Part shown: positions 7,601-33,137 of the stretch, piece after piece
Layout of the letters: every line of letters begins with the position of its first letter
Position numbering within the stretch: the first letter of the stretch is position 1
Assembly (NCBI RefSeq): GCF_015277895.1
Contig: NZ_CP063815.1
Location: forward strand, 2,914,001 to 2,978,000
DNA length: 64,000 nt
Origin: Microbacterium abyssi
Lineage (GTDB): Bacteria; Actinomycetota; Actinomycetes; Actinomycetales; Microbacteriaceae
Reading direction: 5' to 3'
Program-made: the position numbers and the translations under genes
The notes under the pieces: model-generated
What the model saw: the letters and a program-made list of their open reading frames with translations, nothing else
Database searches by the model: none
What the model was told of the DNA's origin: nothing

Positions 7601-7635
7601 CTTGTAACTACAGGACTTGTAATTACAGGTATACT
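7601..7635 (+). promoter_or_regulatory. Twin CTTGTNATTACAGG operators with -10 of the kinase operon
   Basis: CTTGTAACTACAGG (7601-7614) and CTTGTAATTACAGG (7616-7629) lie 15 bases apart centre to centre. TATACT at 7630-7635 follows directly and can serve as the -10 of the kinase operon. A bound repressor would also block the divergent cupin gene. Confidence 0.7.
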
Positions 7636-7683
7636 CCAAAACAGCACGATCCGGAACCGCAACCATCGAAGCAGGCACGAACT

Positions 7684-9279
7684 GTGATCATCGCCCACGA
7701 CCTCGGCACCACCGGGAACAAGGCCTCGCTGCACCACGACGACGGCCGTCCGGTCGCCTCCACGACCGTCGGCTATCCGGCGCACTTCGCCGCCGGCGGC
7801 ATCGCCGAGCAGGATCCCCAGGACTGGTGGAACGCCGTGGTGTCAGCCACCCGCGACCTCCTCTCTCGCACCGGCACAGCGCCCGCCGATGTGCAAGGCC
7901 TCGTGGTCAGCGGCCAGATGATGGGCGCCGTGCTGCTCGACGGCGATGGCGTCCCGGTGCGCCCGGCGATCATCTGGGCCGACACGCGCGCCGGCGCGCA
8001 GCAGCGCGAGCTCGAGGGCGTGCTCGGCGCCGAACACGCGTACGAACTGCTCGGCCACCGGTTGAACCCCACCTACTCCGTCGAGAAGGTCATGTGGGTG
8101 CGCGACAACGAGCCCGACGTCTGGGCCCGCGTCCGGCGCTTCTGCGTCGCGAAGGACTACATCGTCCTCGGCCTCACCGGGCGCCTCGCGACCGACCGCT
8201 CCGACGCCTCCGGCACGAACGCCTACGATCAGCGCACCGGCGACTGGTCCGACGAGGTTCTGCAGGCCGCCCGCCTCAACCGCACGCTCTTTCCCGAGAT
8301 CCTCGATTCGACGGCGATCGCCGGCACGCTGACGGATGCCGCCGCCGAAGCCCTGGGCCTGACGACCGCAGTGCGCGTCGTGATGGGCGGCGGCGACGGG
8401 CCGATGGCCGCCGTCGGATCCGGCATCGTCGCGCCGGAGGACGGCGCTTACGTGTGCCTGGGCACCTCCTCATGGATCTCGTTCGCGAGCGACACCCCCC
8501 TGATCGACAAAGGCCTTCGCACGTTCACATTCGACAACGTCGTGCCCGGGTCGTTCGTACCGACGGCGACGATGCAGGCCGGTGGCGCCTCGATCCAGTG
8601 GATCTCCGAGGCGCTCTCCGCCGATCCGGCGAAACCCGAGACTGCGCGACTCACGTCGGAGGCCGGCGGCGACCTCGATACCGAGGACCTCTACTTCCTC
8701 CCGTATCTGCTCGGCGAACGGTCTCCCATCTGGGATCCGAACGCCCGCGGCGCCTTCGTCGGCATCGGCCGCCATCACACCCGCCACCATCTCGTCCGCG
8801 CGGTGCTCGAGAGCATCGGGTACAACCTGCTCACCAGCATCCACGCGTTCCGCGAGTCCGGCGCGACGATCGACCGGATCGATGCTGTCGGCGGCGGAGC
8901 GCAGAGCGACGCGCTGCTGCAGGTCCTCGCCGACGTCTGGGGCGTGCCCGTGCGCCGGCGCACGATCGTCGAAGAGGCGAACAGCCTCGGCGCTGCGGTC
9001 ACCGGCGCCGTCGGCCTCGGGCTCGCCGACTTCTCGGCCGCCCGCGCCCTTAGCGAGGTGACGGCGGAGTTCACCCCGGATGCCGGTCGCCACGGCATCC
9101 ACGCCGAGCGCCATGCCCGCTTCACCGCCGCGTACGACGCCCTGGCGCCATGGTTCGCGTCCGGACCCGCACAGTCCGGGGGCCGACCCGACACAGGTCG
9201 GACCGATTCGCCGGATGCGTCCGACATCCGTGCATCCGGCCCCCAGAGTTTCTCCGCCGAGCCGGGAGATGACCGCTGA
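7684..9279 (+). CDS. FGGY-family carbohydrate kinase (xylulokinase-like)
   Basis: A 531-residue kinase with the two-domain FGGY fold. The N-terminal phosphate loop DLGTTGNKA, the substrate-region segment AIIWADTRAG, and the C-terminal DAVGGGAQSDALLQVLADV and EANSLGAAVTGA are clear. It phosphorylates a sugar with ATP; xylulokinase-like sequence suggests a ketose or polyol, but the substrate is not certain. Start GTG 7684 is chosen because the fold begins there; the ribosome-binding site is weak. The last 40 residues are a hydrophilic Ser/Gly/Asp-rich tail outside the family fold, encoded by a hairpin-rich DNA stretch (9178-9244). Confidence 0.85.
   Translation: MIIAHDLGTTGNKASLHHDDGRPVASTTVGYPAHFAAGGIAEQDPQDWWNAVVSATRDLLSRTGTAPADVQGLVVSGQMMGAVLLDGDGVPVRPAIIWADTRAGAQQRELEGVLGAEHAYELLGHRLNPTYSVEKVMWVRDNEPDVWARVRRFCVAKDYIVLGLTGRLATDRSDASGTNAYDQRTGDWSDEVLQAARLNRTLFPEILDSTAIAGTLTDAAAEALGLTTAVRVVMGGGDGPMAAVGSGIVAPEDGAYVCLGTSSWISFASDTPLIDKGLRTFTFDNVVPGSFVPTATMQAGGASIQWISEALSADPAKPETARLTSEAGGDLDTEDLYFLPYLLGERSPIWDPNARGAFVGIGRHHTRHHLVRAVLESIGYNLLTSIHAFRESGATIDRIDAVGGGAQSDALLQVLADVWGVPVRRRTIVEEANSLGAAVTGAVGLGLADFSAARALSEVTAEFTPDAGRHGIHAERHARFTAAYDALAPWFASGPAQSGGRPDTGRTDSPDASDIRASGPQSFSAEPGDDR
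9178..9244. other. Nested hairpins inside the 3' end of the kinase gene
   Basis: GGGGGCCG (9178-9185) pairs with CGGCCCCC (9237-9244). Inside are CCGACC/GGTCGG (9183-9188 with 9196-9201) and GGATGC/GCATCC (9212-9217 with 9232-9237). The stretch encodes the non-family tail of the kinase and looks like an element absorbed into the coding region. Confidence 0.5.
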
Positions 9280-10256
9280 TGGGCATCATCCTCGCCACCA
9301 GCCGATCGTTCTCGGACGGCGACCTCGACCTCGTCGCCCGAGCGGCGGATGCGGGACACGAGATCGTCCGCGGCCCCGCGCACCACGAGCTCCACGAGCT
9401 GGCGCCGCTGCTCGCGAAGGCGGACGCCTGGATCGCAGGCACCGGCCCCGTCACCGCCGCGCACCTGGATGCTGCACCGAACCTCAAGATCGTCGCCCGC
9501 TACGGCGTCGGCACCGAGGCGGTGGATCTCGACGCTGCAGCGACCCGCGGCATCCTCGTCACGAACACACCCGGTGCCAACGCCGATGCCGTCGCCGACC
9601 ACGCCGTCGGCCTCATGCTCGCCGCGCTCCGCCTCATCCCGGACGGCGACCGGCGCGTGCGCGACGGCGACTGGAGCGTCCGACGCGGGCGGGAACTCGG
9701 CGCCGCCACCGTCGGAATCGTCGGTTTCGGTCGCATCGGCCAGGGCGTCGCGAAGCGCCTCGACGGCTTCGGCCCGCGCATCCTCGCCGCCGACCCCTTC
9801 CTCACCGCCGAGCGCATCCGCGAGCTGGGCGCCGAGCCCGTCGAGCTCGACGAGCTGTTCCGCACCGCCGACCTCATCACCCTGCACGCTCCGGGCGGGC
9901 AACGGCTCGTCGACGCCGACCGGCTCGACGGCATCCCGCCCGGAACAATCATCGTCAACACCGCCCGGCCCGATCTCATCGACGAATGGGCGGTCGCCCA
10001 CGCACTGCGCGACCGCATCCTCGCCGGCTACGCCGCCGACACGCTCGACGGCGACACCGCGGCATCCGCCAGTCCCCTCCTCGCCGCGGAGCTCGCCGAG
10101 CACGTGATCGTCACCCCGCACCTGGGTGCACAGACCACGCAGGCCGTCGACAACATGGGCTCGATGTCGCTCGACGACGTGCTCGCCGTCCTCGCCGGCC
10201 GCGAGCCCGCTCATCCCGTTCAGGTCGCAGAGAACGCCGCAAAGCCGGCGTCATAG
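9279..10256 (+). CDS. D-2-hydroxyacid dehydrogenase family protein
   Basis: A 325-residue NAD-dependent dehydrogenase. The dinucleotide-binding motif is VGIVGFGRIGQG (around residue 150), and the downstream catalytic region carries the conserved NTARPDLIDE and TPHLGAQT segments with the catalytic His. It would reduce or oxidise a 2-keto/2-hydroxy acid formed from the sugar. Its start overlaps the kinase stop by one base (TGATG). The last dozen codons and the stop lie in 61-bp element copy B, so the natural C terminus may have been replaced by element sequence. Confidence 0.85.
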   Translation: MGIILATSRSFSDGDLDLVARAADAGHEIVRGPAHHELHELAPLLAKADAWIAGTGPVTAAHLDAAPNLKIVARYGVGTEAVDLDAAATRGILVTNTPGANADAVADHAVGLMLAALRLIPDGDRRVRDGDWSVRRGRELGAATVGIVGFGRIGQGVAKRLDGFGPRILAADPFLTAERIRELGAEPVELDELFRTADLITLHAPGGQRLVDADRLDGIPPGTIIVNTARPDLIDEWAVAHALRDRILAGYAADTLDGDTAASASPLLAAELAEHVIVTPHLGAQTTQAVDNMGSMSLDDVLAVLAGREPAHPVQVAENAAKPAS

Positions 10257-10296: not shown

Positions 10297-11226
10297 ATGA
10301 CCAGCACTTCCGCCTCCGACTACATGGGTTTCGTCGGCGTCACCACCGGTTCGTCGTCGATCATGAAGGTGTTCCCGCTGTGGGCCGACATCCTGGCGCT
10401 GCCCACTCGCACGCTCGTGGGGCACGATCTGCCGATGGATGCCACGACCGAGCAGTACCGGGCGATGGTCGAGCAGATCCGCGACGACCCGCACCACCGC
10501 GGCGCTCTGGTCACCACGCACAAGATGAACGTTTACGCCGCGGCATCCGACCTGTTCGATGAGCTCGACCCGTTCGCGGAGTCGTGCTCGGAGATCTCCA
10601 GCATCGCCAAGCGCGGCTCGCGCCTGTCCGGCAGGGCGAAGGACCCGATCACGGTAGACCTCGCGCTGAACGACTTCCTGCCAGCCGACCACTTCGCACG
10701 CACCGGGGCCGAGGTCATCATCCTCGGCGCCGGCGGCTCGGGCACGGCGCTGAGCTGGGCCCTGTCCGAACGTGCGGATGCCCCCTCGAAGGTGACCGTG
10801 ACCGCTCGCGACGACGCGAAGCTCGAGCACCTGCGCGAAGTCCATCGCCAGCACGGCACTCGTGACGGACTCATCGAGTACGTCCGCACCGACTCGGTCG
10901 AGGATGCCGCAGCACTGGTCGCCGCGGCGCCGCCCGGATCGCTCGTCGTCAACGCGACCGGGCTCGGCAAGGATCGCCCCGGCTCCCCGCTGCCCGACGA
11001 CGTCGTCTTCCCCGAGGGCGCGTACGTATGGGAGTTCAACTACCGCGGCTCACTGGAGTTCCTCCACCAGGCCCGCGCGCAGGAGGCCGAGCGCGGCCTG
11101 CACGTGGTCGACGGCTGGCGCTACTTCATCCACGGCTGGTCGCAGGTCGTCGCCGACGTGTTCGAGCTGACGCTGACCCCGGAGATCGTCGAGCAGCTCG
11201 CGGAGGCCGCCGAGGGAGTGCGCTGA
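10297..11226 (+). CDS. Shikimate dehydrogenase-like oxidoreductase
   Basis: A 309-residue AroE-fold protein. The N-terminal catalytic loop reads ALVTTHKMN with the conserved Lys, and the nucleotide-binding domain has ILGAGGSGTALSWAL. It differs from housekeeping AroE (usual NVTxPxK motif), and its place between a hydroxyacid dehydrogenase and a phosphotriesterase-like gene argues for a sugar-acid or cyclic-polyol substrate rather than shikimate. The ATG at 10297 follows an AAAGG box. It overlaps the next gene by one base. Confidence 0.75.
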   Translation: MTSTSASDYMGFVGVTTGSSSIMKVFPLWADILALPTRTLVGHDLPMDATTEQYRAMVEQIRDDPHHRGALVTTHKMNVYAAASDLFDELDPFAESCSEISSIAKRGSRLSGRAKDPITVDLALNDFLPADHFARTGAEVIILGAGGSGTALSWALSERADAPSKVTVTARDDAKLEHLREVHRQHGTRDGLIEYVRTDSVEDAAALVAAAPPGSLVVNATGLGKDRPGSPLPDDVVFPEGAYVWEFNYRGSLEFLHQARAQEAERGLHVVDGWRYFIHGWSQVVADVFELTLTPEIVEQLAEAAEGVR

Positions 11227-12185
11227 TGATCCGCACCGTGCTCGGCGACGTCGCACCCCCAACACTCGGGCCGACGAACTATCATGAGCACCTCTTCCAG
11301 GCGACCCCGCTGCTGCCGGGCGACGAGCTCGACGATGAGGACGCCTCGAGCGCCGAAGCCGTTCTCCTTCGAGACAGCGGCTTCGCCGCGATGGTGGATG
11401 CCACGCCCTTCGGCCTCGGTCGTGACCCGGAGGCCGTCGCGCGCATCAGCGCGGCGACCGGCCTGCGCATCGTCGCCACGACCGGCCGGCACCGCGAGGC
11501 GCACTACGGCGACGACCACCCGATGCAGGTATGGAACGCCGAGCAGCTCGCCGAGCTGTTCATCGCCGATATCACCAGGGGGATGCCTGCCGACGACGCC
11601 GTGGTCTTCGAGAGCCCCGACGTGCCGATCGCCCGAGCGCCGCAGGGCCGTCCGGTGCGCGCCGGCATGCTCAAGGGCGGCATCGACTACTGGCGGATCA
11701 GCGCGTTCGAGCGGACGACGCTCGATGGCCTGGCTGCCGCGCACCGCGCGACGAACGCGCCGGTCATGGTGCACTTGGAGTTCTGCACGGCCGCGCACGA
11801 AGTCCTCGACCTGCTGGCGGCGGAAGGCGTGGCATCCGATCGGGTCGTCCTCGCGCACGCCGACCGCGACCCCGATCCGGCGCTGCACGCCTCGCTTGTG
11901 GAGCGTGGCGCCTACCTCGGGTACGACGGCTTCGCACGCCCCCGCACGCGATCCGATGCGGAGCTGCTCGCGCTTACAGAGCAGGTCGTGGAGCGCGTCG
12001 GCGCCGACCGCATCCTGCTCGGCGGGGACGTCGCCCGCCGCACCCGGTACATCTCCTACGGCGGCATGCCCGGCCTCGCCTACCTCGGCGAGCGCTACCT
12101 GCCGCGGCTGCGTTCGGCGATCGGCACGGATGCCGTGGAGCGGATGCTGGTCGCCAATCCCGCTCGGCTGCTCGACCTGGGGTGA
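11226..12185 (+). CDS. Phosphotriesterase-family (amidohydrolase-fold) protein
   Basis: A 319-residue TIM-barrel metal hydrolase. The N-terminal metal site appears as NYHEH, with later ligands in VHLEFCTAAHE, LAHADRDPD and GGDVARR. Phosphotriesterase homology proteins in sugar operons are usually lactonases, so it may open a sugar-acid lactone made by a neighbouring dehydrogenase (inference). It is the last gene of the kinase operon; a large inverted repeat follows. The ATG at 11226 overlaps the upstream stop (TGATG). Confidence 0.8.
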   Translation: MIRTVLGDVAPPTLGPTNYHEHLFQATPLLPGDELDDEDASSAEAVLLRDSGFAAMVDATPFGLGRDPEAVARISAATGLRIVATTGRHREAHYGDDHPMQVWNAEQLAELFIADITRGMPADDAVVFESPDVPIARAPQGRPVRAGMLKGGIDYWRISAFERTTLDGLAAAHRATNAPVMVHLEFCTAAHEVLDLLAAEGVASDRVVLAHADRDPDPALHASLVERGAYLGYDGFARPRTRSDAELLALTEQVVERVGADRILLGGDVARRTRYISYGGMPGLAYLGERYLPRLRSAIGTDAVERMLVANPARLLDLG

Positions 12186-12442: not shown

Positions 12443-13444
12443 TCACTCGTAGAGGACTGCGGCGATCTTCTCGTCTTCCATGTTGTCGGCGTCGTACCAG
12501 TACGAGCCGGTGTCGTAGAACTCCTCGACCGAGTCGCCGTTGGCCGCGTCGTACGCGGCCTGGACGACCTGCTCGCCGATGCCGATCGGGTCCTGCGTGA
12601 TCGCGCCGGCCATGGTGCCGTCCTTGATCGCGTTGATCTGGGCTGCTCCCGAGTCGAAGCCGATGATCGTCAGCTTGCCCTTCTCGAGGTTGAGCTCGTT
12701 CGCCGCGTTCACGACGCCGATGGCCGAGCCCTCGTTGGTGCCGTAGATGCCCTTGAGGTCAGGGTGCGCGGCGATCATGGCCTTGGCGATGTCGGCGGAC
12801 TTCAGGTGGTCGCCGTCGCCGTACTGGATGTCGACGATCTCGATGTCCGGGTAGTCCGACTCGATCTTCTCGACGAAGCCGTCACGACGCTCGACACCGG
12901 TGGAGTTGATCTGCGAGTGACCGACGATCGCTACCTCGCCCTCTCCGCCGATGAGCTCTGCCATGTGCTCGGCAGCCAGAGCGCCGGCGACCTTGCTGTC
13001 GGTGGCCGCGAGGCTGAGGCCCACGTCGCCGTTGCACGGAGCGTCGAAGTAGACGACCGGGATGTCCTGCGACTTCGCCTTCTCGAGCGGGGCGACGCAT
13101 GCCTCTGGGTCGAGGGCTGCGTACGCGATGGCATCCGGGTTCTTGTCGATCGCCGCCGTCAGCATCTCGAGCTGCTGGGCGATCTCGGTCTCTGCGGCCG
13201 GGCCCTCGAAGGTGATCCGGACGCCGAGCTCTTCTGCCTTCTGCTCAGCGCCCTTCTTGACGGCCTGCCAGAACTGGTGCTGGAAGCCCTTCGAGACGAG
13301 GGCGATGTACATCTCGCCGTCGCCACTGCCACCGCCTGTGTCGCCACCCTCTTCGATGACGTCACCACCGCCGGCACAGCCGGCCATGACGAGAGCGGAT
13401 GCGGCCACCAGGGCCGCGAATGCGGTCTTCTTGCCGAATTTCAT
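12443..13444 (-). CDS. Sugar ABC transporter substrate-binding lipoprotein
   Basis: A 333-residue RbsB-type binding protein (periplasmic-binding domain 4). A lipoprotein signal ends at LVMAGC with Cys23, followed by a Gly/Asp/Glu linker, so it should be anchored outside the membrane. The fold continues with VSKGFQHQFWQ and IIGFDSGA. Genes for permease and ATPase lie upstream in the same operon. Ribose-like proteins bind many sugars (ribose, allose, fucose and others), so the ligand is open. A strong terminator follows. Confidence 0.88.
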   Translation of the reverse strand: MKFGKKTAFAALVAASALVMAGCAGGGDVIEEGGDTGGGSGDGEMYIALVSKGFQHQFWQAVKKGAEQKAEELGVRITFEGPAAETEIAQQLEMLTAAIDKNPDAIAYAALDPEACVAPLEKAKSQDIPVVYFDAPCNGDVGLSLAATDSKVAGALAAEHMAELIGGEGEVAIVGHSQINSTGVERRDGFVEKIESDYPDIEIVDIQYGDGDHLKSADIAKAMIAAHPDLKGIYGTNEGSAIGVVNAANELNLEKGKLTIIGFDSGAAQINAIKDGTMAGAITQDPIGIGEQVVQAAYDAANGDSVEEFYDTGSYWYDADNMEDEKIAAVLYE

Positions 13445-13525: not shown

Positions 13526-14557
13526 TCAGGTTCGCTGGCGGTTGCGCAGCGAGTCGAGGAACACCGCGAGCAGGACGACGATGCCGACCACGACGTTCTG
13601 CCACTCGGTCTGGATCGACATGATGCGGAGGCCATTGACCAGCACGCTCATGATCAGCGCGCCGATCACAGTGCCGAGGATCGAGCCGCGGCCACCCAGC
13701 AGCGAGGTGCCGCCGATGATCACGGCCGCGATGGCCTGCAGCTCGTAGCCCATGCCGATCTGCGGTTGAGCCGAGTCGAGGCGGGAGGCGATGACGATGC
13801 CGGCGATGCCGGTGAAGGCACCGGCGAACATGTAGATGAAGATCGTCCAGCGGCGGGTGTTGACTCCGGACAGGCGCGTGGCCTCTTCGTTCGACCCGAT
13901 CGCGAACGTGTAGCGACCCAGCAGAGTCTTCGACAGGACGATCGCGGCGATGATCGCGAGGACCGCCGTGATGAGGACCGCGTTCGGGATGCCGGGGATG
14001 ATGACGCCGAGTGCGATCTTCTTGAAGTCCGGGGCGGACGACGAGAAGTAGATCGGCGCGACGTTGGAGACGACCAGGGCCAGACCGCCGGCGATCATCA
14101 TCATCGCCAGCGTGGCGATGAAGGGAGGCAGGCGCAGGAACGTGACGTTGACACCGTTGATGAGTCCCATCAGCACACCGGTGCCGACGCCGCCGATGAG
14201 GCCCAGCCACACCGGCAGCCCCCAGTTCGTGATGAACACACCGGTCATGACGGCGCACAGCGCCATCCCGGTCCCGAGCGACAGATCGATGCCGCCGGTG
14301 ATGATCACGAAGGTCGTGCCGAGGGCGAGGATGCCGATCACCGCAGTGGACAGCAGCACCGTGGCGATGTTGCTGAACGTGAAGAAGTTCGGGCTTGCGA
14401 TGGCGAAGAAGATCACGAGGATCACGAGCGTGCCGAACGCCAGCGACTGCTGAACCTGACGTTTCAGGAAGCCGGCGACGTCGCGCTTGTCGGTGTCCTC
14501 ATTGACGGCCTGCTGGATGACGGTCGTCGTCTCTCCGGACTGCTGTGGGGTGCTCAT
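13526..14557 (-). CDS. Sugar ABC transporter permease (RbsC family)
   Basis: A 343-residue membrane protein with 8-10 segments and the BPD_transp_2 signatures of ribose-type permeases: GGIDLSLGTG, SGVNTRRW and GGTSLLGGRGSILGTVIGA. It forms the channel for the importer with the ATPase encoded just upstream, whose stop codon overlaps its start. A long cytoplasmic N terminus (about 45 residues) precedes the first membrane segment. Confidence 0.9.
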   Translation of the reverse strand: MSTPQQSGETTTVIQQAVNEDTDKRDVAGFLKRQVQQSLAFGTLVILVIFFAIASPNFFTFSNIATVLLSTAVIGILALGTTFVIITGGIDLSLGTGMALCAVMTGVFITNWGLPVWLGLIGGVGTGVLMGLINGVNVTFLRLPPFIATLAMMMIAGGLALVVSNVAPIYFSSSAPDFKKIALGVIIPGIPNAVLITAVLAIIAAIVLSKTLLGRYTFAIGSNEEATRLSGVNTRRWTIFIYMFAGAFTGIAGIVIASRLDSAQPQIGMGYELQAIAAVIIGGTSLLGGRGSILGTVIGALIMSVLVNGLRIMSIQTEWQNVVVGIVVLLAVFLDSLRNRQRT

Positions 14558-16059
14558 CAGTCTTCCTCCCCGTGGGCTGCGAGTTGCATGATCTTCTCCT
14601 GGCTGGCTTCTTCGTTGCGGAGCGTTCCGGTGATCCGGCCGTTCGCGAACACGACGATGCGGTTCGCGACGCGCAGGATCTCCGGGAGCTCCGACGAGAT
14701 GACGATGATGGACTTTCCGGCGTCTGCGAGCTGCTGCATGAGCCGGTAGATCTCCTCCTTCGCACCGACGTCGATCCCTCGGGTCGGCTCATCGAAGATG
14801 AGGATGTCGCAGTCGCGCATCAGCCATCTGGCGATGACGACCTTCTGCTGATTCCCACCGGAGAGCAGCTTGACGATCTGTCCTACCGACGGGGTCTTCA
14901 CCCGCAGCTGCTGCACGTACTGCTTGGTCTGGTTCTTGGCCTTGCCGTCGCCCATCCAGCCCAGTGCACCCGCGTAGCTGCTCAGCGAGGCGAGGACCGT
15001 GTTGAACGTGACGTCCTGTTCGAGCATGAGGCCGAGCTGCTTGCGGTCCTCGGAGAGGTATCCGACGCCGCGCTTGACAGCATCCTCGGGCTGATGGATC
15101 TTGGCGTCGCGACCGTTGATCCTGATGGTTCCGGCACTGCGAGGGTCGGCGCCGATGACGGCGCGAGCCGTCTCGGTGCGCCCCGCGCCCATCAGGCCCG
15201 CGAACCCGAGGATCTCTCCGCGGTGCAGCTGGAAGGAGACGTCCTTCAGCAGGACTCTGGTGGACAGGCCGTCCACATCGAGCACGATGGGAGCGTCCTG
15301 GTGATCGCGGGCGGCGGGGCGGGTGCCCTCGTCGATGACGCGGCCGACCATCATCTCGATGATCTTCGGGACGCTGATCTCGCTCTTCTCGAGCGATCCG
15401 ATGTACTGCCCGTCGCGGAGCACGCTCACCCGGTCGGCGAGGCGGCGCAGCTCGTCCATGCGGTGCGAGATGTAGACGATTCCGGTGCCGTCCGCCTTGA
15501 GCTGCTCGATCAGGGTGAACAGCGTCTCGACCTCGCTGTCGGTCAGCGCGGAGGTCGGCTCGTCCATGATGAGCACCTTGGCGTTGAAGGACAGCGCCTT
15601 GGCGATCTCGACCATCTGCTGCTCGGCGACCGTGAGCTCGCCGACCTTCTGGCGCGGATCGAGCCGGATGTTCAGACGCTGCAGCAGTTCGGCGGTCTGC
15701 CTGTTGAGGCGACGCTCGGAGAGGAGGCCCGCAGAGGTGGGCTCGCGGCCGATGAAGATGTTCTGCGCGACGGTGAGGTCGGGCATCAGGTTGAGCTCCT
15801 GATGGATGATCGTGATGCCGAGCTGCTGGGCCTGGAGCGGGCTGGTCAGCTCCACCTCTTTGCCCTCGAACGTGATGGTGCCCTCGTCGCGGGTATAGAT
15901 CCCGGAGAGGATCTTCATCAGAGTCGACTTGCCGGCGCCGTTCTCGCCCACGAGCACGAGCACCTCGCCGGCGCGCACCTCGAGGTGCACATCCTCGAGT
16001 GCCTGCACACCGGGGAAGCCCTTGCTGATGCCTTCCACCCGGAGGATGGGATCGCTCAT
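14557..16059 (-). CDS. Sugar ABC transporter ATP-binding protein (RbsA type, two ATPase domains)
   Basis: A 500-residue fused ATPase. The first domain has Walker A GENGAGKST and Walker B VLIMDEPTSAL; the second has signature LLSGGNQQK and Walker B ILIFDEPTRG with a degenerate Walker A region (GLMGAGRTE), as is normal for this family. Start ATG 16059 has the Shine-Dalgarno AGGTGA. It is the first gene of the importer operon; an operator-like 14-mer lies about 140 bases upstream at 16201-16214. Confidence 0.92.
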   Translation of the reverse strand: MSDPILRVEGISKGFPGVQALEDVHLEVRAGEVLVLVGENGAGKSTLMKILSGIYTRDEGTITFEGKEVELTSPLQAQQLGITIIHQELNLMPDLTVAQNIFIGREPTSAGLLSERRLNRQTAELLQRLNIRLDPRQKVGELTVAEQQMVEIAKALSFNAKVLIMDEPTSALTDSEVETLFTLIEQLKADGTGIVYISHRMDELRRLADRVSVLRDGQYIGSLEKSEISVPKIIEMMVGRVIDEGTRPAARDHQDAPIVLDVDGLSTRVLLKDVSFQLHRGEILGFAGLMGAGRTETARAVIGADPRSAGTIRINGRDAKIHQPEDAVKRGVGYLSEDRKQLGLMLEQDVTFNTVLASLSSYAGALGWMGDGKAKNQTKQYVQQLRVKTPSVGQIVKLLSGGNQQKVVIARWLMRDCDILIFDEPTRGIDVGAKEEIYRLMQQLADAGKSIIVISSELPEILRVANRIVVFANGRITGTLRNEEASQEKIMQLAAHGEED

Positions 16060-16200
16060 GTGCTCACCTGCTTCCTTGAAGGGTCTTTCGGGTCGATTCC
16101 TTCGTGGAATCCATTTCAAACATCGGGTCAATTGTGCAGGCTCGATCGGCTCTGCGCAAGTTGTATCTAAATGTACCTAATGCGTTCTCCCCATGGTAGA

Positions 16201-16214
16201 CCTGTAATAACAAC
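16201..16214 (-). promoter_or_regulatory. CTTGTNATTACAGG-type operator
   Basis: The minus strand reads GTTGTTATTACAGG, matching the consensus of the other sites except the first base. It lies in the 197-base divergent region between the ABC importer operon and the epimerase-like gene, 43 bases from the latter's ATG. Confidence 0.6.
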
Positions 16215-16256
16215 TTTGTCACGGATGCGCTCGAACGCGCAGTGGAAGGGATCGAA

Positions 16257-17129
16257 ATGCTCATCGGCGCGCACGGATTGGTCTTCACCGGCACCTTCGA
16301 CGAGGCGGGCCTGCGGCGCGCCATCGAGGGGACGAAGAACGCCGGCTTCGACCTCATCGAGATTCCGCTGATGGATGCAGCGGGCTTCGACTCGGACCTC
16401 GCCGGCCGGATGCTGCGCGACAACGACCTCGCGGTGACGGCATCCCTCGGGCTGACGCCCGCCACCGATCTCACCAGCGACGACCCCGCTGTCGTCGCCG
16501 CCGGTGTCTCGACGCTGGAGCGCTGCCTCGACCACGTCGCGACCATGGGCGGCGACGTGCTGTGCGGCGTCATCTACTCGGCGATGGGCAAGTACATGAC
16601 CCCGGTGAGCGCCGCAGGCGTTGCGAACAGTCGGGAGGCGATCTCCGGTCTCGCGGCGAAGGCCGCGGAGCGCGGCATCCGACTCTCGCTCGAAGTCGTC
16701 AACCGCTACGAGTCGAACGTCTTCAACACCGGACGCGGCGCTCTGGCCTTCCTCGACGACGTCGCGGAGGACGTCAGCGTTCACCTGGACACGTACCACA
16801 TGAACATCGAGGAGTCGGACTTCTTCCAGCCGGTGCACGACGTCGCGAGGGCCGGCAAGCTCGGCTATGTGCACATCGGCGACAGCCACCGCGGATACCT
16901 CGGCACCGGCACGGTCGACTTCGCGACGTTCTTCCGCGCGCTGCACGACGTCGCCTACGACGGACCGGTCGTGTTCGAGTCGTTCTCGTCTGCCGTGGTG
17001 AGCGCCGAGCTCAGCAACACGCTGGGCATCTGGCGCAACCTGTGGCAGGACTCCGACGACCTCGCCGCGCACGCCAACCGCTACATCCGCGACGCGCTGC
17101 ACGCCGTCGGGACCATCGACCTGCACTAG
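16257..17129 (+). CDS. Sugar epimerase/isomerase, D-tagatose 3-epimerase-like
   Basis: A 290-residue TIM barrel. LDTYHMNIEE is close to the metal-site motif of ketose 3-epimerases (tagatose/psicose 3-epimerases), and Glu in SLEVVNRYESN plus the following His and Glu complete a plausible Mn/Co site. It probably interconverts ketoses at C3, but other members of the AP-endonuclease-2 fold act on sugar acids. ATG 16257 has an AAGGG box; a GTG five codons earlier is a weaker choice. It is divergent from the ABC importer and ends overlapping the convergent fucose mutarotase gene by 4 bases. Confidence 0.8.
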   Translation: MLIGAHGLVFTGTFDEAGLRRAIEGTKNAGFDLIEIPLMDAAGFDSDLAGRMLRDNDLAVTASLGLTPATDLTSDDPAVVAAGVSTLERCLDHVATMGGDVLCGVIYSAMGKYMTPVSAAGVANSREAISGLAAKAAERGIRLSLEVVNRYESNVFNTGRGALAFLDDVAEDVSVHLDTYHMNIEESDFFQPVHDVARAGKLGYVHIGDSHRGYLGTGTVDFATFFRALHDVAYDGPVVFESFSSAVVSAELSNTLGIWRNLWQDSDDLAAHANRYIRDALHAVGTIDLH

Positions 17130-17545
17130 GCGGAGGCATGCCCGACGACGCCCTTGCGGAGCAGCGCGTTGCCGTACTTTCGGGTCTCGCCGGTGCGAAC
17201 CATGAGGTAGGCGTGTTTCGCCACCTCGTAGTACGCGAAGCGCTCGACGAACCTCGTGGTCTCGAGGGTCGTGCCCGCGGCATCCATCAGCTCGCGCTGG
17301 ACGTCCAGCACCTCGCCGTCAGCGGACTCCATGAGGTCGAGTCCCGGCGCGTCATCCAGCGGGACGACGGTGCGGATCGCGGCGAGCACCTCCGGCGTCG
17401 TCGTGCCGGGCAGATCGACCGCGCGCTCGCCCAGCGCCCACGCGGGAAAGTGCGCGTCGGCGATGACAACGGCATCCGAGTGGCCCATGCGGTCGAGGTG
17501 CAGCAGCAGCTCACCGGTCAGCAGCGGGTTGATTCCTTCGAGCAT
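17126..17545 (-). CDS. RbsD/FucU family mutarotase, probable L-fucose mutarotase
   Basis: A 139-residue protein with the FucU hallmark MGHSDAVVIADAHFPA, where FucU proteins normally read MGHGDEIVIADANFP. It catalyses anomer exchange of a free sugar. Position downstream of L-fuconate dehydratase and an aldo/keto reductase on the same strand points to L-fucose. The start is supported by a strong GAGGAGG box. A 61-bp inverted repeat lies between it and the aldo/keto reductase gene, which could attenuate its expression. A second, more RbsD-like paralogue is at 25285. Confidence 0.85.
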   Translation of the reverse strand: MLEGINPLLTGELLLHLDRMGHSDAVVIADAHFPAWALGERAVDLPGTTTPEVLAAIRTVVPLDDAPGLDLMESADGEVLDVQRELMDAAGTTLETTRFVERFAYYEVAKHAYLMVRTGETRKYGNALLRKGVVGHASA

Positions 17546-17569
17546 GGTTCCTCCTCGGTCGAGCGGCGT

Positions 17570-17630
17570 GTTCAGGTCGCACATTCTGCCGGTATACGCG
17601 TCTCATAACGACAACGATCGCGACCTGAAC
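17570..17630. repeat. 61-bp inverted-repeat element, copy C
   Basis: The most perfect copy: GTTCAGGTCGC at one end and its exact complement GCGACCTGAAC at the other. It sits in the gap between the aldo/keto reductase and mutarotase genes. Confidence 0.85.
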
Positions 17631-17636
17631 GCGTGG

Positions 17637-18599
17637 TCAGGTCCCAATCAGCTTCTCGGCGGCGAGTTCGGCCCAGAAATCCGCAGGAATCTCGACAGCC
17701 GCGAGTCCGGCGTTCTGCCGCACCTGCTCCGGGCGGGAGCTGCCGACCACGACCGATCGGGTGGCGGCATCCCGGAGCGGGAACTGGATCGCGGCCGCAG
17801 GCAGCGGCACGTCGTGGGCGCGGCACACGGCGACGATGCGCTGCAGCCGGTCCCAGATCTCGTCGGGCACGCCGCCGTACTCGTAGCGGCTGTCGCGGGT
17901 CGGCTCGACCTTCGCGAGCAGGCCGGAATTGAAGACGGATGCCGCGACCACACCGGTCCCGCGCTCATGGCAGACCGGCAGCACCTCTTCGGCGGCGGGC
18001 TGCTCGAGCAGCGTGTACCGGCCGGCGATCATGACCGCATCGAGGTCGGCCTCGCGCACCGACCGCGCGAGCGCCTCCGACACCATCGAGCCGACGCCGA
18101 CCGCACCGACCGCACCCTCAGCGCGCAGCCGTTCGAGCGCGGGGAACGCCTCCGCAATCGCCAGGTCGAGATCGTGGCGCTCCGGGTCGTGCAGGTAGAC
18201 GAGGTCGATCCGGTCGATCCCCAGTCGCTCGCGCGATTCGTCGAGCGAAGTTCGGATGCCGGCATCCGAGAAGTCCCACACCCGCTGCACATCGTCCGGG
18301 ACGAAGAAGTCGTTGTCGGTGTCGAGACCGCCGGCGTACGCGGTGTTCGGGCGCAGCAGCCGTCCGGCTTTCGTCGACAGGAAGTACTCCTCGCGCGGCT
18401 TGGTCTGCAGGAACGCGCCGAGCCGCCGCTCCGACAGACCCAGCCCGTAGTGCGGCGCTGTGTCGAAGTAGCGGATGCCGGCATCCCACGCGGCATTCAG
18501 CACTGCCCAGGCCTCGTCATCCGTGAGCGCTCGGAAGAGATTGCCGACGTTCGCGGCGCCGTACCCGAGCGTCGGGATCTCCAGCTCAGTCCGTGACAT
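17637..18599 (-). CDS. Aldo/keto reductase, probable L-fucose (D-threo-aldose) dehydrogenase
   Basis: A 320-residue TIM-barrel oxidoreductase. The catalytic Asp and Tyr are in [13 protein letters not shown] and Lys in LSTKAGRLL. This branch resembles D-threo-aldose 1-dehydrogenases that oxidise L-fucose to L-fuconolactone with NAD(P). Its start lies inside the 3' end of the L-fuconate dehydratase gene, so the two are co-translated. ATG 18599 is preferred; a GTG two codons upstream is possible. Function is inferred mainly from family and neighbours. Confidence 0.82.
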
Positions 18600-22811: not shown

Positions 22812-22818
22812 GACGGTC

Positions 22819-23496
22819 ATGGCTGTCACCGATGAGGCGATCGAGAAGATCAAGGCGATGATCGTGTCCGGAGAGCTCTCCCCCGGCGACCGCCTGCCGC
22901 CCGAGAAGGAGCTCGCCGAGCGGCTCGGACTCTCGCGCAATTCGATGCGCGAGGCGGTGAAGGCCCTCGAGGTCATCCGAGTGCTCGATGTGCGCCGCGG
23001 CGACGGCACGTACGTCACCAGCCTCGAGCCTCACCTGCTGCTCGAGGCGATCTCCTTCGTCGCCGACATGCACGACGACGACTCTCTCCTCGAGATCTTC
23101 GCCGTGCGGCGGATGCTGGAGTCCCAGGCCACCGGACTCGCTGCGACGCTGGGCACCGATGACGCCGTCGCCGCGCTCCACGCCGAGATCTCGTCCCTCG
23201 ACGCCGACGTTACGATCGACGATCTCGTCGATCACGACATCCGCTTCCACCGTGAGATCGTGCGGATGGCCGGCAACACCTACCTCGCGAGCCTGATCGA
23301 GAGCCTCAGCGGCCAGACGGTGCGGGCCAGGGTGTGGCGTGGACTCACCGAGCAGGGCGCGGTCGAGCGGACGCTGTCCGAGCACCGTGCGATCGCCGAC
23401 GCGATCGCACAGCACGATCCGAACCTGGCCACATCGCTCGCCACCGCGCACATCGCCGGCGTCGAGCGCTGGCTGCGTCAGGCCGCGACTGCCTGA
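22819..23496 (+). CDS. FadR/GntR-type regulator of the L-fucose genes
   Basis: A 225-residue FCD-class GntR protein: winged helix at residues 5-75 (ELAERLGLSRNSMREAVKAL, DGTYVTS) and an FCD domain with helical metal/ligand-site residues (DHDIRFHREIV, SEHRAIADAI). ATG 22819 is chosen because TAGAAT lies seven bases upstream and there is no Shine-Dalgarno, which suggests a leaderless mRNA; ATGs at 22801 and 22810 are alternatives. Its place at the edge of the fucose genes and the shared ACATCCGA sequence suggest it represses them and itself. Confidence 0.85.
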   Translation: MAVTDEAIEKIKAMIVSGELSPGDRLPPEKELAERLGLSRNSMREAVKALEVIRVLDVRRGDGTYVTSLEPHLLLEAISFVADMHDDDSLLEIFAVRRMLESQATGLAATLGTDDAVAALHAEISSLDADVTIDDLVDHDIRFHREIVRMAGNTYLASLIESLSGQTVRARVWRGLTEQGAVERTLSEHRAIADAIAQHDPNLATSLATAHIAGVERWLRQAATA

Positions 23497-23519: not shown

Positions 23520-24188
23520 CTACGCGCCGATGCGGCCCATCGCGGCCTCGAACTCCGCTGCCGAGCGGTCGCTGACCTCGTGGAACAGCAGTTCGTCGAG
23601 CACGTCCGGCGCGGCCGTGAAGTACGGCACGCCCGCCAGTCGCAGCGAGACGATGTCCTCCGCAGAGCGGAGGCTCGCAGCGAGCACGTTCGTCTCGCTG
23701 CCCGCACAGACCTCCTGCATCCTGGCGATCAGCGTGTCGCCGTCGACGCCCGCGTCGCGCAACCGGCCGAGGTACGGCGCGATGTACCGCGCGCCGATGC
23801 TCGCGGCGGCGAGCGCCTGACCGACCGAGTACACGGCCGTCACGAGAACGCTCACCCCGTCGGAGACGAGGGCGGATGCCGCGGCGAACCCCTCGGCCGT
23901 GGCGGGGACCTTAACGGCCACCCGGTCGCCGAGCGTGCGGATGGGCTCCGCATTGGCCAGCAGCTCCCGGCGCGACGCGCCCCAGGTCTGGAAGAAGATC
24001 TCCCGCGCGCCCTCGTCCTTCCAGCGGGCGTAGAGGTCAGGGATCTCGTCGGCACTGCGCCCGCCCCGCTCGAGGATCGTGGGGTTGGTCGTCACGCCGT
24101 GCACGACACCGGCGCGCAGCAGCCGGGAGACCCGATCGAGGTCGGCGCTGTCGACGTACAGGCGCGGAGCGGAGGCGGCAGCAGACAT
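23520..24188 (-). CDS. Transaldolase / fructose-6-phosphate aldolase-like protein
   Basis: A 222-residue class I aldolase of the small transaldolase (TalC/MipB) type. The Schiff-base Lys is in VAVKVPAT, and VTTNPTILERGG is the conserved phosphate-side motif. Its length matches F6P aldolase-like proteins rather than the 320-370 residue pentose-phosphate transaldolases. ATG 24188 has a GAGGAG box. It is divergent from ribokinase across two operator-like boxes, so it probably belongs to a sugar catabolic module rather than central metabolism. Confidence 0.85.
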   Translation of the reverse strand: MSAAASAPRLYVDSADLDRVSRLLRAGVVHGVTTNPTILERGGRSADEIPDLYARWKDEGAREIFFQTWGASRRELLANAEPIRTLGDRVAVKVPATAEGFAAASALVSDGVSVLVTAVYSVGQALAAASIGARYIAPYLGRLRDAGVDGDTLIARMQEVCAGSETNVLAASLRSAEDIVSLRLAGVPYFTAAPDVLDELLFHEVSDRSAAEFEAAMGRIGA

Positions 24189-24223: not shown

Positions 24224-24264
24224 CCTGTCGTTACAGGTGCGGATTCGGCTAATGTAATGACAGG
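24224..24264. promoter_or_regulatory. Two CTTGTNATTACAGG-like operators between transaldolase and ribokinase
   Basis: CCTGTCGTTACAGG (24224-24237) is nearly palindromic. AATGTAATGACAGG (24251-24264) reads CCTGTCATTACATT on the other strand. They lie 27 bases apart in the divergent promoter region. Confidence 0.6.
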
Positions 24265-24288: not shown

Positions 24289-25272
24289 ATGCCCGCCTCC
24301 CCCACCGAAGGACGCACCGGCGTCGTCATCGTCGGAAGCGTCACGGCGGATGTGACGACCTTCTCCCAGCGCCTCCCCGCCAGGGGCGAGACCATCCTCG
24401 GCGATCAGTTCACGCTGTTCCTCGGCGGCAAGGGCGCGAACCAGGCGGTCGCTGCCGGACGCGCCGGCGCCCGCACCAGCTTCGTCGGCTGCGTCGGCGA
24501 CGACCTGTTCCACGACCTCATCGTCGACGGCCTGACGGATGCCGGCGTGGACCTCGCGCACCTGCGCACCGTCCCCGGCCCGACCGGCATCGCCCACATC
24601 CGGGTGGATGCCTCGGCGCAGAACGACATCGTCATGGTTCCGCTCGCGAACGCCGAGCTCAGCACTGCGCAGATCGACGCGGCGCTGGACGACCTCGCCA
24701 GCACGGCATCCGTTCTGCTGACCCAGCTCGAGACGCCGTCGGCTCTCACCACGCACATCACGTCGCGCGGACAGGAACTCGGCTTCACCGTCATCCTCGA
24801 CCCGGCCCCCGCCGCTCCCCTGCCCGCCGACGTGTGGGGCAGCATCGACATCGTCACGCCGAACGAGACGGAGGCCTCGGTGCTCAGCGGCATCGAGGTG
24901 ACGGATGCCGCAAGCGCCGAACAGGCCGGACGCTGGTTCCTCGACCAGGGCGTCGGCGCCGCCGTCATCACCCTCGCCGCGCAGGGCTCCTGCGTCGTGA
25001 CGCCGGAGGGCAGCACCATCGTCACGCCGATGCCTGTGGAGGCCGTCGACACCACCGCCGCAGGCGACGCGTACGCCGGGTACCTCGGCGCCGCGCTCGC
25101 GAACGGTGCGACGCTGACCGATGCCGTCCGCGTGGCCACCGCCGCCGGGGCCCTCACCGTCACGAAGCACGGTGCCTCTCCGAGCCTTCCCGTCCGCGCC
25201 GATGTCGACGCCTTCCTCGCCCAGCGCGGCGACGGCACCCTGCATAACGACAGCGCCGCGCGCGCATCCTGA
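24289..25272 (+). CDS. rbsK: Ribokinase (PfkB family)
   Basis: A 327-residue PfkB kinase. GGKGANQAVAAGRAG near the N terminus and the catalytic DTTAAGDAYAGYL near the C terminus (Asp base; AAGD anion hole as in known ribokinases) are clear. It phosphorylates ribose or a related sugar at the 5-hydroxyl with ATP. ATG 24289 has a GGAG box. It is followed 12 bases later by rbsD and then the GntR gene, forming one operon. The exact sugar is uncertain since the ABC importer is 8 kb away. Confidence 0.83.
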   Translation: MPASPTEGRTGVVIVGSVTADVTTFSQRLPARGETILGDQFTLFLGGKGANQAVAAGRAGARTSFVGCVGDDLFHDLIVDGLTDAGVDLAHLRTVPGPTGIAHIRVDASAQNDIVMVPLANAELSTAQIDAALDDLASTASVLLTQLETPSALTTHITSRGQELGFTVILDPAPAAPLPADVWGSIDIVTPNETEASVLSGIEVTDAASAEQAGRWFLDQGVGAAVITLAAQGSCVVTPEGSTIVTPMPVEAVDTTAAGDAYAGYLGAALANGATLTDAVRVATAAGALTVTKHGASPSLPVRADVDAFLAQRGDGTLHNDSAARAS

Positions 25273-25284: not shown

Positions 25285-25683
25285 ATGCGAAAGACCTCGA
25301 CGACGATCAACCCCGCGCTCTCGCGCGTGATCAGTGAGACCGGGCACACGGATCTCATCGTGGTGACCGATGCCGGTCTCCCCATTCCGCCCGGCTCCGA
25401 GCGGATCGACCTCGCCTATCGCCCGGGCGCCCCTGCGTTCTTCGACGTGCTCGACACTGTGCTCGCCGAGATGGTGGTCGAGGGCGCGACCGTGTCGGCG
25501 GAGGTCGCCGACCACAGCCCCGAGGTGCTGGCGCAGTTGCGCGACCGGCTCCCCGGCATCGAGATCGAGCTCGTGCCGCACGTGGAGTTCAAGAAGCGCA
25601 CGCACGGAGCCCGCGCGTTCGTCCGCTCGGGCGAGTTCACGCCGTACGCCAACGTCATCCTGCACGCAGGGGTGGCGTACTAG
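25285..25683 (+). CDS. rbsD: D-ribose pyranase (RbsD)
   Basis: A 132-residue RbsD/FucU-fold protein: INPALSRVISETGHTDLIVV with the conserved His, then VTDAGLPIP, and a C-terminal GEFTPYANVILHAGV. This closely follows RbsD rather than FucU. It converts pyranose to furanose forms of ribose for RbsK, whose gene is just upstream. A GGAG box precedes the start. Its stop codon directly abuts the next ATG. Confidence 0.88.
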   Translation: MRKTSTTINPALSRVISETGHTDLIVVTDAGLPIPPGSERIDLAYRPGAPAFFDVLDTVLAEMVVEGATVSAEVADHSPEVLAQLRDRLPGIEIELVPHVEFKKRTHGARAFVRSGEFTPYANVILHAGVAY

Positions 25684-26505
25684 ATGTCCGCCCAGCGCGG
25701 CGCCGATGCGATCGACCGGCACTCCGCAGCGCCGATGTACGACCAGTTGCGCCAGCTCATCATCGACGGTATCGAACGCGACGGCCTCCAGCCCGGCGAT
25801 CCGCTCCCCGGCGAGCACCGGCTGTGCGAGCGCTACGGCATCTCCCGCACGGTGGTGCGGCAGGCGCTCGCCCAGCTCGAGCACGAGGGCATGGTGGAGC
25901 GGGTCAAGGGCAAGGGCACGTTCGTGTCTCGCCCGCGGACGAGCGAGTCGCTGGTGCACACCCTGATCGGCCTGTACGACGATGTCGAGCGGCGCGGCGG
26001 TCACGTGCACAGCGACATCCTGCGCCATGAGCGCGAGGATGCCGACCCCGAGGTCGCCGCCGCTCTCGAGGTGCCCATCGGCTCTCCCGTGATCGCCCTC
26101 GAGCGGCTCCGGCACGTGGACGGCGAACCGTGGTCGCTGTCGACGACCTGGATGCCGGAAGCCGTCGGCGCCGTCACCCTCGGGGTCGACCTGTCCGAGG
26201 CATCCCTCTACCGGCTGCTCGCCGACCACGGCATCCAGGCCACGGACGGCGTGCGCTCCGCCGAGGCGACCGTCGCGACTCACGATCACGCTCAGCACCT
26301 GGGCGTCAGCGCGGGGTCGGCGCTGCTGCGCCTGCGCAGCGTCAGCCGAGATGCGTCCGGAATTCCGATCGAGTACTTCGTCGCGCTGCACCGCGGTGAC
26401 CGCTCGAGATTCGAGTTCCGGCTGCGACAGGAGCAGTCCCAGGCGTCGCTTCTGCATGTCGATGGCACCGGTGGCACGTCCAGGGCGGGTACAGTCTCTG
26501 TCTGA
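25684..26505 (+). CDS. GntR/HutC-family regulator with UTRA domain
   Basis: A 273-residue HutC-type repressor. The winged helix (about residues 12-80: RYGISRTVVRQALAQLEHEG, KGKGTFVS) is followed by a UTRA ligand domain ending RSRFEFRLRQ. Being last in the rbsK-rbsD operon with no gap, it most likely senses the sugar or its phosphate and controls this operon. It is the best candidate for binding the CTTGTNATTACAGG sites here and at 7.6, 16.2 and 33.1 kb, since HutC proteins bind palindromes with TGT/ACA arms (inference). Confidence 0.87.
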   Translation: MSAQRGADAIDRHSAAPMYDQLRQLIIDGIERDGLQPGDPLPGEHRLCERYGISRTVVRQALAQLEHEGMVERVKGKGTFVSRPRTSESLVHTLIGLYDDVERRGGHVHSDILRHEREDADPEVAAALEVPIGSPVIALERLRHVDGEPWSLSTTWMPEAVGAVTLGVDLSEASLYRLLADHGIQATDGVRSAEATVATHDHAQHLGVSAGSALLRLRSVSRDASGIPIEYFVALHRGDRSRFEFRLRQEQSQASLLHVDGTGGTSRAGTVSV

Positions 26506-31732: not shown

Positions 31733-31738
31733 CCCTAG

Positions 31739-31791: not shown

Positions 31792-31805
31792 CCAGGAAGC
31801 TCGAG

Positions 31806-33047
31806 TCACAGCGCGGCCGCAGCCGCTTCATCTTCCGTCGTGGCCACGAGCTGGCCGCAGGCGCCGTCGATCTCCTTGCCGCGGGTGTCGCGGAGGGTGG
31901 TCGGGATGCCGGCGTCGTTGAGACGGCGGACGAACTCGGCCGTGACGTCCTTCTCGGACGCGGTCCACACCGACTCCGGGGTCGGGTTCAGCGGGATCGG
32001 GTTGACGTGCACCCAGCCGCGGCCGCGCTGGTTGAGCTTCTCCGCCAGCAGGTCGGCGCGCCAGGCGTGGTCGTTCATGTCCTTGATGAGCGCGTACTCG
32101 ATCGAGACGCGGCGGCCGGTCTTCTCGTAGTACTCGCGTGCGGCATCCAGCGCCTCGTCGACCTTCCAGCGCGAGTTCACCGGGATGAGCTCGTCACGCA
32201 GGTGGTCGTCCGGCGCATGCAGCGACAGCGCGAAGGTGACCGGGATGTTCTCGTCGGCGAGCTTCCTGATCGCCGGCACCAGTCCGACCGTCGACACGGT
32301 GATGCCGCGGGCGCTCATGCCGAGTCCGTCGGGCTGAGGGGCGACCATGATGCGCACGGCATCCATCACCCGCTTGTAGTTCGCGAGCGGCTCTCCCATG
32401 CCCATGAAGACGATGTTCGAGACGCGCTCCATGCTGTGATCGTCGGCCTTCTTGCCGCCCAGGCCGCCCTCGGCGATGAGGCGGTTGGCGCGGACGATCT
32501 GCTCGATGATCTCGGCGGTCGACATGTTGCGGGTCAGCCCCGCCTGGCCGGTGGCGCAGAACGGGCAGTTCATGCCGCAGCCGGCCTGGCTCGACACGCA
32601 CAGCGTGATGCGGCCGGGGTAGCGCATGAGCACCGACTCGACGAGCGCGCCGTCGTGCAGTCGCCACAGGAACTTGATCGTGTCGCCGCGATCGGTCTCG
32701 AGACGACGCACCTCGGTGAGCAGCGGCGGCAGCATCCCGGCTACCAGCTCCTCGCGCTGCGAGGCAGGGAGGTCCGTCATCTCGGCCGCGTCGGACGTGT
32801 AGTGCGTGAAGTAGTGGGTCGAGAGCTGCTTCGCGCGGAAGCCGGGAAGCCCCAGCTCCTTGACCTTCTCGGTGCGCTCGGCGGGCGTGAGGTCGGCGAG
32901 GTGCACCGGCGGCTTGCCGCGCTTCGGGCTCGCGAACTGCAGCAGCGGGCGGCCCGACTCGTCCGTCTTCTGGGTCCAGCCCTCGGTCCGCGGGCGCACC
33001 TGCGGTTTTGCGGGACCCGTCGAGCGGATGCGGGAGTTCTCGGTCAT
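31806..33047 (-). CDS. rlmN: 23S rRNA adenine-2503 C2-methyltransferase
   Basis: A 413-residue radical-SAM RNA methyltransferase. The iron-sulfur cluster motif CGMNCPFC (CxxxCxxC) and the later GMGEPLANY and [12 protein letters not shown] segments are diagnostic of RlmN/Cfr. It modifies A2503 of 23S rRNA and probably also tRNA. ATG 33047 has a strong GGAGGGT box; the 40-residue N-terminal extension before the fold is common in actinobacteria. A housekeeping gene, unlinked to the sugar loci around it. Confidence 0.94.
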
Positions 33048-33106
33048 ACCCTCCAGGGTACGGGCTCGCGAGTGAGAAGACGCTGGAGTGCTCGGCATCC
33101 CGCGCA

Positions 33107-33137
33107 CTTGTCATTACAGGTTGTGATCCGGGAGAAT
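33107..33137 (+). promoter_or_regulatory. KDPG-aldolase promoter with CTTGTNATTACAGG operator
   Basis: CTTGTCATTACAGG lies at 33107-33120. Its TTGTCA (33108-33113) can be the -35, with GAGAAT (33132-33137) as -10 at an 18-base spacing. Binding would block the -35. Confidence 0.65.

Follow-up and report, generated by a model that had tools for sequence, protein, structure and literature searches.

The window analysed here is a stretch of 64,000 nucleotides from Microbacterium abyssi (positions 2914001-2978000 of a single 3.27-Mb contig). It contains six copies of a 14-bp palindrome near CYTGTAATTACARG, distributed over four loci that encode an importer and enzymes for sugar metabolism. The GT and AC of the palindrome stand four nucleotides apart (GT-N4-AC), as in the operators of HutC-type GntR regulators, and a protein of this type, with a GntR and a UTRA domain (GntR-UTRA), is encoded at one of the loci (25684-26505). 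Comparison with related genomes makes it very probable that all six palindromes serve as operators for GntR-UTRA, and that the genes behind them form one regulon.

Operators and genes of the four loci

Two operators occupy the divergent promoter between a cupin gene and an FGGY kinase gene: operator 1 (7601..7614; CTTGTAACTACAGG) and operator 2 (7616..7629; CTTGTAATTACAGG). Operator 3 (16201..16214, minus strand; GTTGTTATTACAGG) lies in the divergent promoter between the genes for an ABC importer and a TIM-barrel epimerase, about 140 bp from the importer start codon. Operator 4 (24224..24237; CCTGTCGTTACAGG) and operator 5 (24251..24264; AATGTAATGACAGG), 27 bp from it, share the transaldolase/ribokinase divergent promoter, and operator 6 (33107..33120; CTTGTCATTACAGG) belongs to the promoter of a KDPG-aldolase gene. 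Inspection by eye places likely promoter elements at two of the sites: operator 2 is followed directly by TATACT, the likely -10 of the FGGY operon; and operator 6 contains TTGTCA, a possible -35, with a GAGAAT -10 starting 18 bp further on. All six sites are intergenic given the start codons chosen here; the rlmN frame could start at 33107, and would then overlap operator 6 by one base.

The initial annotation had listed these six sites, and all are present, well above the chance level in shuffled sequence. A search of the window for CTTGTNATTACAGG with up to three mismatches gives 12 strand-matches versus 2.05 +/- 1.28 in 100 shuffles (largest, 6); 11 of these represent the six sites and the remaining one is at 55193. 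The ideal palindrome at the same tolerance retrieves exactly the six sites, with 0.23 expected. Sites 24224 and 24251 fit the printed consensus poorly (two and three mismatches, respectively), and are nonetheless among the best-conserved stretches of their spacer.

Across the 3.27-Mb genome, the motif at up to two mismatches yields 17 strand-matches versus 10 for the reversed pattern; outside this stretch it is therefore no commoner than chance. Six of the 10 off-locus sites fall within predicted genes and four between genes, and the eight proteins scanned at or beside five of them include no sugar-specific family (one is an aldehyde dehydrogenase). Additional regulon members elsewhere in the genome were considered and rejected: the top-scoring off-locus sites are located within genes for a helicase and a zeta-toxin-like protein or, where they fall between genes for a histidine kinase and a DAO oxidoreductase, have a broken TGT/ACA core. 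Nor is the motif spread through the genome in a search of 14 genomes for CTTGTNATTACARG (up to one mismatch): 67 strand-matches were found versus 7 for the reversed control, and comparison of coordinates assigns 58 of them to the same promoters and only 9, a number to be set against those 7, to positions elsewhere.

The gene map derives from Pfam and NCBIfam scans, which bear out the earlier descriptions of the four loci. The first locus comprises a cupin sugar(-phosphate) isomerase of the archaeal phosphoglucose isomerase type (6979..7584, minus strand; PF06560) and, on the plus strand, an operon for a xylulokinase-like FGGY carbohydrate kinase (7684..9279; TIGR01312, 383.6 bits, cut-off 380.25), a D-isomer-specific 2-hydroxyacid dehydrogenase (9279..10256), a shikimate-dehydrogenase-like oxidoreductase (10333..11226; matches far below curated cut-offs), and a phosphotriesterase-family enzyme (11223..12185) nearest to phospho-furanose lactonases (94.4 bits, cut-off 630). 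At the second locus, three minus-strand genes encode an ABC sugar importer: the substrate-binding protein (12443..13444), the permease (13526..14557), and an RbsA-like double ATPase (14557..16059; 589.9 bits, cut-off 745). The TIM-barrel epimerase/isomerase gene (16242..17129, plus strand; D-psicose-3-epimerase-like, 152.5 bits, cut-off 300) diverges from them, and is a regulon member in this lineage.

The third locus consists of a transaldolase or fructose-6-phosphate-aldolase-like gene (23520..24188, minus strand) and three plus-strand genes: a ribokinase-like PfkB kinase (24289..25272; 289.2 bits, curated cut-off 299.65); RbsD, a D-ribose pyranase (25285..25683; NF008761, 150.7 bits, cut-off 93); and GntR-UTRA, the proposed repressor and sensor (25684..26505). 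At the fourth, a KDPG/KHG-aldolase-family gene (33165..33803, plus strand) is directly followed by that for a TauE/SafE exporter (33806..34552, plus strand). TauE lies immediately 3' of the aldolase gene in only 6 of 21 checkable genomes and is therefore probably a passenger; as a firm regulon member it was rejected. The rlmN gene stands beside the aldolase gene only at some loci: at L240 (genome G034), and not at L241 (G196) or L242 (G060), where G handles denote genomes and L handles loci of relatives.

Conservation, loss, and probable dispersal of the operators

GntR-UTRA orthologues of at least 59% identity are present in 44 of 198 Microbacterium genomes, that of the window included; some match at E up to 1e-20 occurs in 125 of the 198, the other listed ones at no more than 40% identity. 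Upstream regions (up to 250 bp before each gene) were scored with a matrix made from the six window sites only, at a cut-off of 15. A site precedes the ribokinase gene in 43/43, the transaldolase gene in 42/42, and the importer ATPase gene in 36/36 of the genomes examined, and the kinase/cupin promoter carries one in 43/43 genomes with the regulator, so the site is conserved upstream of the orthologues in related Microbacterium genomes. (The automated count for the kinase/cupin promoter is 28/43, covering only the 250 bp before genes with an aligned start; a second cupin type accounts for the remaining 15, whose sites were found separately.) Control upstream regions, in-operon genes included, reach the cut-off in 0 of 502 cases, with a maximum of 9.4; excluded from these controls were rlmN (3/25 at 15 or above) and EamA (1/6), whose upstream regions can reach the site of the aldolase or cupin gene, as well as the TIM-barrel gene, since the importer's site is also its own.

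Alignment of the ribokinase/transaldolase spacer from 41 genomes and of the importer promoter from 35 reveals near-invariant operator cores within flanks of which much is variable. The importer promoter has further conserved blocks, so that conservation there does not single the operator out. The cupin gene is replaced, in one group of genomes, by the second type (33-37% identical), which has the same direction as the kinase gene; an operator pair stands in front of this arrangement (L105, L106, L111, L112, and others). A relative of the regulator is encoded at 42 named loci (40 from Microbacterium, one from Leucobacter, and one from Salinibacterium), and all 42 have a site upstream of the ribokinase gene, although many of these are the G-handle genomes and do not make an independent count.

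The FGGY kinase and the regulator occur together: 43 of the 44 regulator genomes have a kinase orthologue (at least 68% identity, two of them partial), versus 2 of the 154 others, and the one regulator genome lacking a kinase orthologue, G107, is 79% complete. An aldolase site is present in 37 of 41 regulator genomes, and three of the other four have the aldolase gene inside the kinase operon. Where this gene lies outside the kinase operon, it has the site in 36 of 37 genomes with the regulator versus 0 of 12 without it (Fisher p = 1.4e-10), a comparison that leaves out G030 (site present, no GntR found), G036 (upstream stretch not fetched; its aldolase site seen in the CTTGTNATTACARG search), and the distant aldolases, of at most 60% identity, of G173, G050, G139, and G164, and in which one of the 12 genomes, G023, is 83% complete. 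With 1e-50 as the highest E value allowed, the aldolase search found no match in regulator genomes G134, G125, and G171. In an aldolase tree of rough support, whose rows labelled as lacking the regulator include G030 and G173, such genomes are scattered, and the well-supported branches force at least four label changes; repeated losses are therefore likely.

Some of these losses spared an aldolase or importer gene and not its operator. Of the 12 genomes without the regulator, 8 still show GAGAAT near the aldolase start (found by eye), with the operator gone. Similarly, G075 retains the importer (88-91% identical) in the absence of the regulator; its importer promoter has lost the operator (best score, -2.5), and stretch AATTGACCCGATGTTTG there is intact despite that loss. 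The sites are thus conserved with GntR-UTRA and absent where its orthologue is absent, a pattern that supports the protein at 25684, already proposed as the candidate binder, as their likely regulator.

Other genera suggest how the four loci arose. In a family search, 20 of 398 genomes gave a GntR match with an E value of 1e-60 or less, and of these 17 belong to 11 other genera (49-63% identity); matching sites lie near the GntR orthologue, within the stretch fetched, in 17/17 of these. The clusters generally run in the order transaldolase, site, ribokinase, RbsD, GntR, site, cupin, kinase, 2-hydroxyacid dehydrogenase, aldolase, oxidoreductase, lactonase; the importer is found next to these genes, and single genes are absent in some. 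The aldolase gene is within the kinase operon in 14 of the 15 other-genus stretches that cover it (two did not reach the kinase operon), and three genomes of the genus itself, G043, G086, and G167, show the same clustered order.

The four loci are therefore most simply viewed as pieces of one cluster, and probably are dispersed remnants of an older one. The initial annotation had united four separate loci into one regulon: the shared, conserved, and jointly lost operators uphold the union, but the loci probably are not independent; most of the genes usually stand in one cluster in other genera. The genus search found one aldolase match per genome at E up to 1e-50, which fits a move of the aldolase gene; such a move is the reading inferred here, though a second aldolase may have been recruited instead. 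The window would then be a clear case of a scattered gene cluster whose operators stayed with the pieces.

GntR-UTRA and its likely mode of action

GntR-UTRA contains an amino-terminal GntR winged helix-turn-helix (PF00392, 68.9 bits, cut-off 27) and a carboxyl-terminal UTRA effector domain (PF07702, 116.3 bits, cut-off 23.8). HutC-type operators mostly have GT and AC four nucleotides apart, and FadR-type operators three (PMC4494728); the operator described here, TGT-AATT-ACA, has the HutC spacing. The same domain architecture and near-palindromic GT-N4-AC operators characterize NagR (YvoA) of Bacillus subtilis and DasR of Streptomyces coelicolor. Operators of NagR, as here, stand before more than one sugar operon, one of which includes the gene for the regulator; NagR residue Arg48 contacts G-4, and Arg38 contacts G-5 (both points from PMC4333415).

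Residue positions were equated through the DasR alignment and not from a structure of GntR-UTRA itself. On that basis, all 61 aligned sequences (61/61) have Arg at the Arg48 position, whereas the Arg38 position is His in 55/61 and Leu, Phe, or Ser in the other six, never Arg. The half-sites differ from those of NagR and DasR correspondingly, with T in place of G at -5: among 120 entries scoring 15 or above, G-4, T-3, and T at -5 each occur in 240/240 half-sites, a uniformity that preselection by score favours and in which some entries are the same site read once for the cupin gene and once for the kinase gene. The target genes, too, form a different pathway from those of NagR and DasR.

GntR-UTRA is probably a repressor, the sign of control, the binding, and the effector all being inferred from these comparisons. 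Without inducer, the dimer would occupy the operators, overlapping or abutting likely promoter elements, and thereby shut off the genes for the importer, isomerase, kinase, dehydrogenases, lactonase, aldolase, transaldolase, and ribokinase/RbsD, along with its own. Binding of a sugar or sugar phosphate by the UTRA domain would then release the dimer. The aldolase gene, at its separate place, would respond through its own operator copy, as would the importer in Microbacterium and a few other lineages. Repression by occlusion is the likeliest mode, because the site overlaps the likely aldolase -35 and abuts the likely kinase -10.

These promoter positions also bear on whether GntR-UTRA might instead act as an activator, or as a mixed activator and repressor. 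The distance of operator 3 from the importer start codon would suit such a role; with the overlap at the aldolase promoter, the abutment at the FGGY promoter, and the nearest solved relatives, DasR and YvoA, deposited as repressors, activation seems unlikely. Much less likely still is another binder altogether, such as the GntR-FCD protein (22834-23496) encoded among L-fucose-like genes: it is likewise of the GntR family and located between the loci, but its orthologues (75-90% identity) persist in 9 of the 12 genomes whose aldolase gene is without the site, and it was rejected as the binder on this ground. Moreover, the site is missing from the promoters of the GntR-FCD gene itself (0/39), the FAH gene (0/37), and the dehydratase gene (0/37); the GntR-FCD and L-fucose-like promoters are marked by a different conserved box; and FadR-type operators are mostly GT-N3-AC (PMC4494728).

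Chance resemblance, or ordinary promoter sequence, could account for motif letters that overlap likely promoter elements and for two of six sites that lie two or three bases off the printed consensus, but hardly for the empty controls, for conservation resolved column by column, or for an aldolase GAGAAT that outlasts the operator where the regulator is absent. This explanation was rejected on the genus-wide site scores relative to the control upstream regions, and its probability is negligible.

Control of the six sites by GntR-UTRA thus remains the preferred interpretation. Several observations weigh against it or against parts of it, besides the preselection of half-sites. Two genomes, G030 (77% complete) and G162 (76%), have the kinase gene and sites, and no GntR orthologue was found in them; conversely, G022 has the regulator and a degenerate aldolase site (score, 8.6). 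In G196 and G060, two of the 12 genomes without the regulator, a distant GntR-UTRA paralogue (29-30% identity) is encoded some 0.7 kb away from the aldolase gene, control of which may thus have passed to another regulator. Genomes that lose the regulator lose the whole pathway with it, and co-loss alone could point to any co-lost gene; GntR-UTRA is the only fitting regulator seen among the cluster genes that were scanned. The importer promoter is without the operator in 5/5 other-genus regions checked. Finally, the lactonase and oxidoreductase assignments fall well below curated cut-offs.

The proposed pathway, its importer, and neighbouring genes

The core genes encode the importer, cupin isomerase, FGGY kinase, 2-hydroxyacid dehydrogenase, aldolase, shikimate-dehydrogenase-like oxidoreductase, and phosphotriesterase-family lactonase; in NCBIfam scans, the curated family names of the regulon proteins do not fix a substrate. 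Speculatively, the following order is consistent with the gene families: the incoming sugar would be converted to a sugar phosphate, isomerised, and oxidised to a phospho-aldonolactone, which would be opened by the lactonase, oxidised at C2 by the 2-hydroxyacid dehydrogenase to a 2-keto-phosphoaldonate, and cleaved by the aldolase. Among phospho-furanose lactonases of the phosphotriesterase superfamily, 3pnz and 3msr/3ovg are the nearest solved chains to the lactonase by sequence, and presumably act on pentonolactone phosphates. NF045706 is its best-scoring named family, but the score lies so far below the cut-off that the enzyme is not classed as a member.

D-ribose utilisation (RbsABC, RbsK, and RbsD) offers another comparison, with a ribokinase-like kinase, a D-ribose pyranase, and an RbsA-like importer also present here. 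RbsD scores above its cut-off, the ribokinase just below, and the importer ATPase below. In contrast to D-ribose utilisation, however, the genes here include the GntR/HutC regulator, an extra FGGY kinase, the cupin isomerase, the lactonase, two dehydrogenases, and the aldolase, and the distant clusters L231 and L232 showed no ribokinase, RbsD, or transaldolase homologue in their 20-kb stretches.

A diverged core (kinase at 49-59% identity, lactonase, oxidoreductase, and dehydrogenase) was observed separately at L171, L173, and L174, of genomes G173, G074, and G089. The stretches fetched there contain no GntR-UTRA match and no site; these copies possibly represent the same pathway under another regulator.

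The region 17126-23496, between the loci, encodes a FucU-like protein, an aldo/keto reductase, an enolase-family dehydratase, an FAA hydrolase, an SDR, an amidohydrolase, and GntR-FCD. This set looks like a non-phosphorylating L-fucose-type pathway, a name that rests on families, the named models scanned matching below curated cut-offs. Neither the window motif search nor upstream scoring found any of the sites at these genes. Related boxes were found instead: ACATCGGGTCAAT at the importer promoter (16120-16132); ACATCCGACCAAT at the promoter of GntR-FCD itself (22790-22802); and AACATCGGATGT at the L-fucose-like operon promoter (19936-19947). G075, whose importer promoter has lost the GntR-UTRA operator, retains the importer box ACATCGGGTCAAT. 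The boxes are probably operators of the GntR-FCD regulator, and the importer would thus be dually controlled. A box common to the importer and L-fucose-like promoters suggests one importer for two regulons, and the importer may be shared with the L-fucose-like genes. It further suggests that the substrate resembles L-fucose sterically, as D-arabinose, to make a guess, would.

The importer operator itself is restricted. It is present in G086, G167, and Leucobacter komagatae, and weaker sites (15.1 and 14.8) precede the binding-protein gene at L216 and L217, respectively. The importer joined the regulon only in some lineages. Within the gene set of the initial annotation, TauE is thus a probable passenger, and the importer has a lineage-specific operator and probably a second regulator's box.

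The importer/epimerase promoter also contains, at 16161-16180, a 10-bp direct repeat, TTGTATCTAAATGTACCTAA, that is nearly invariant in 35 genomes of the genus. The repeat is recognisable in the five other-genus regions, which are without the GntR operator there, and this is its sole occurrence in the window at up to three mismatches.

The broadest proposal drawn from this arrangement is offered tentatively, with the odds rather against it: an unrecognised phosphorylating-oxidative sugar pathway without a dehydratase, whose importer is shared with the L-fucose-like pathway through a two-regulator promoter. No description of the regulon or the enzyme set was found in openly licensed PubMed Central texts, the sole material covered, and among the matches listed for either 10-base operator core no paper concerns this regulon by its title; two further matches concern Listeria, to judge by title or abstract. 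The regulon is new, of a known regulator type, and surrounds a pathway without an assigned substrate. For a sugar pathway that family names alone do not identify, there is now an operator together with its likely regulator and a closed set of genes, with which the substrate can be found in a screen of expression or binding.

At the edge of the window, 506-4817 encodes an apparent methylcitrate (propionate) operon with a GntR-FCD gene of its own.

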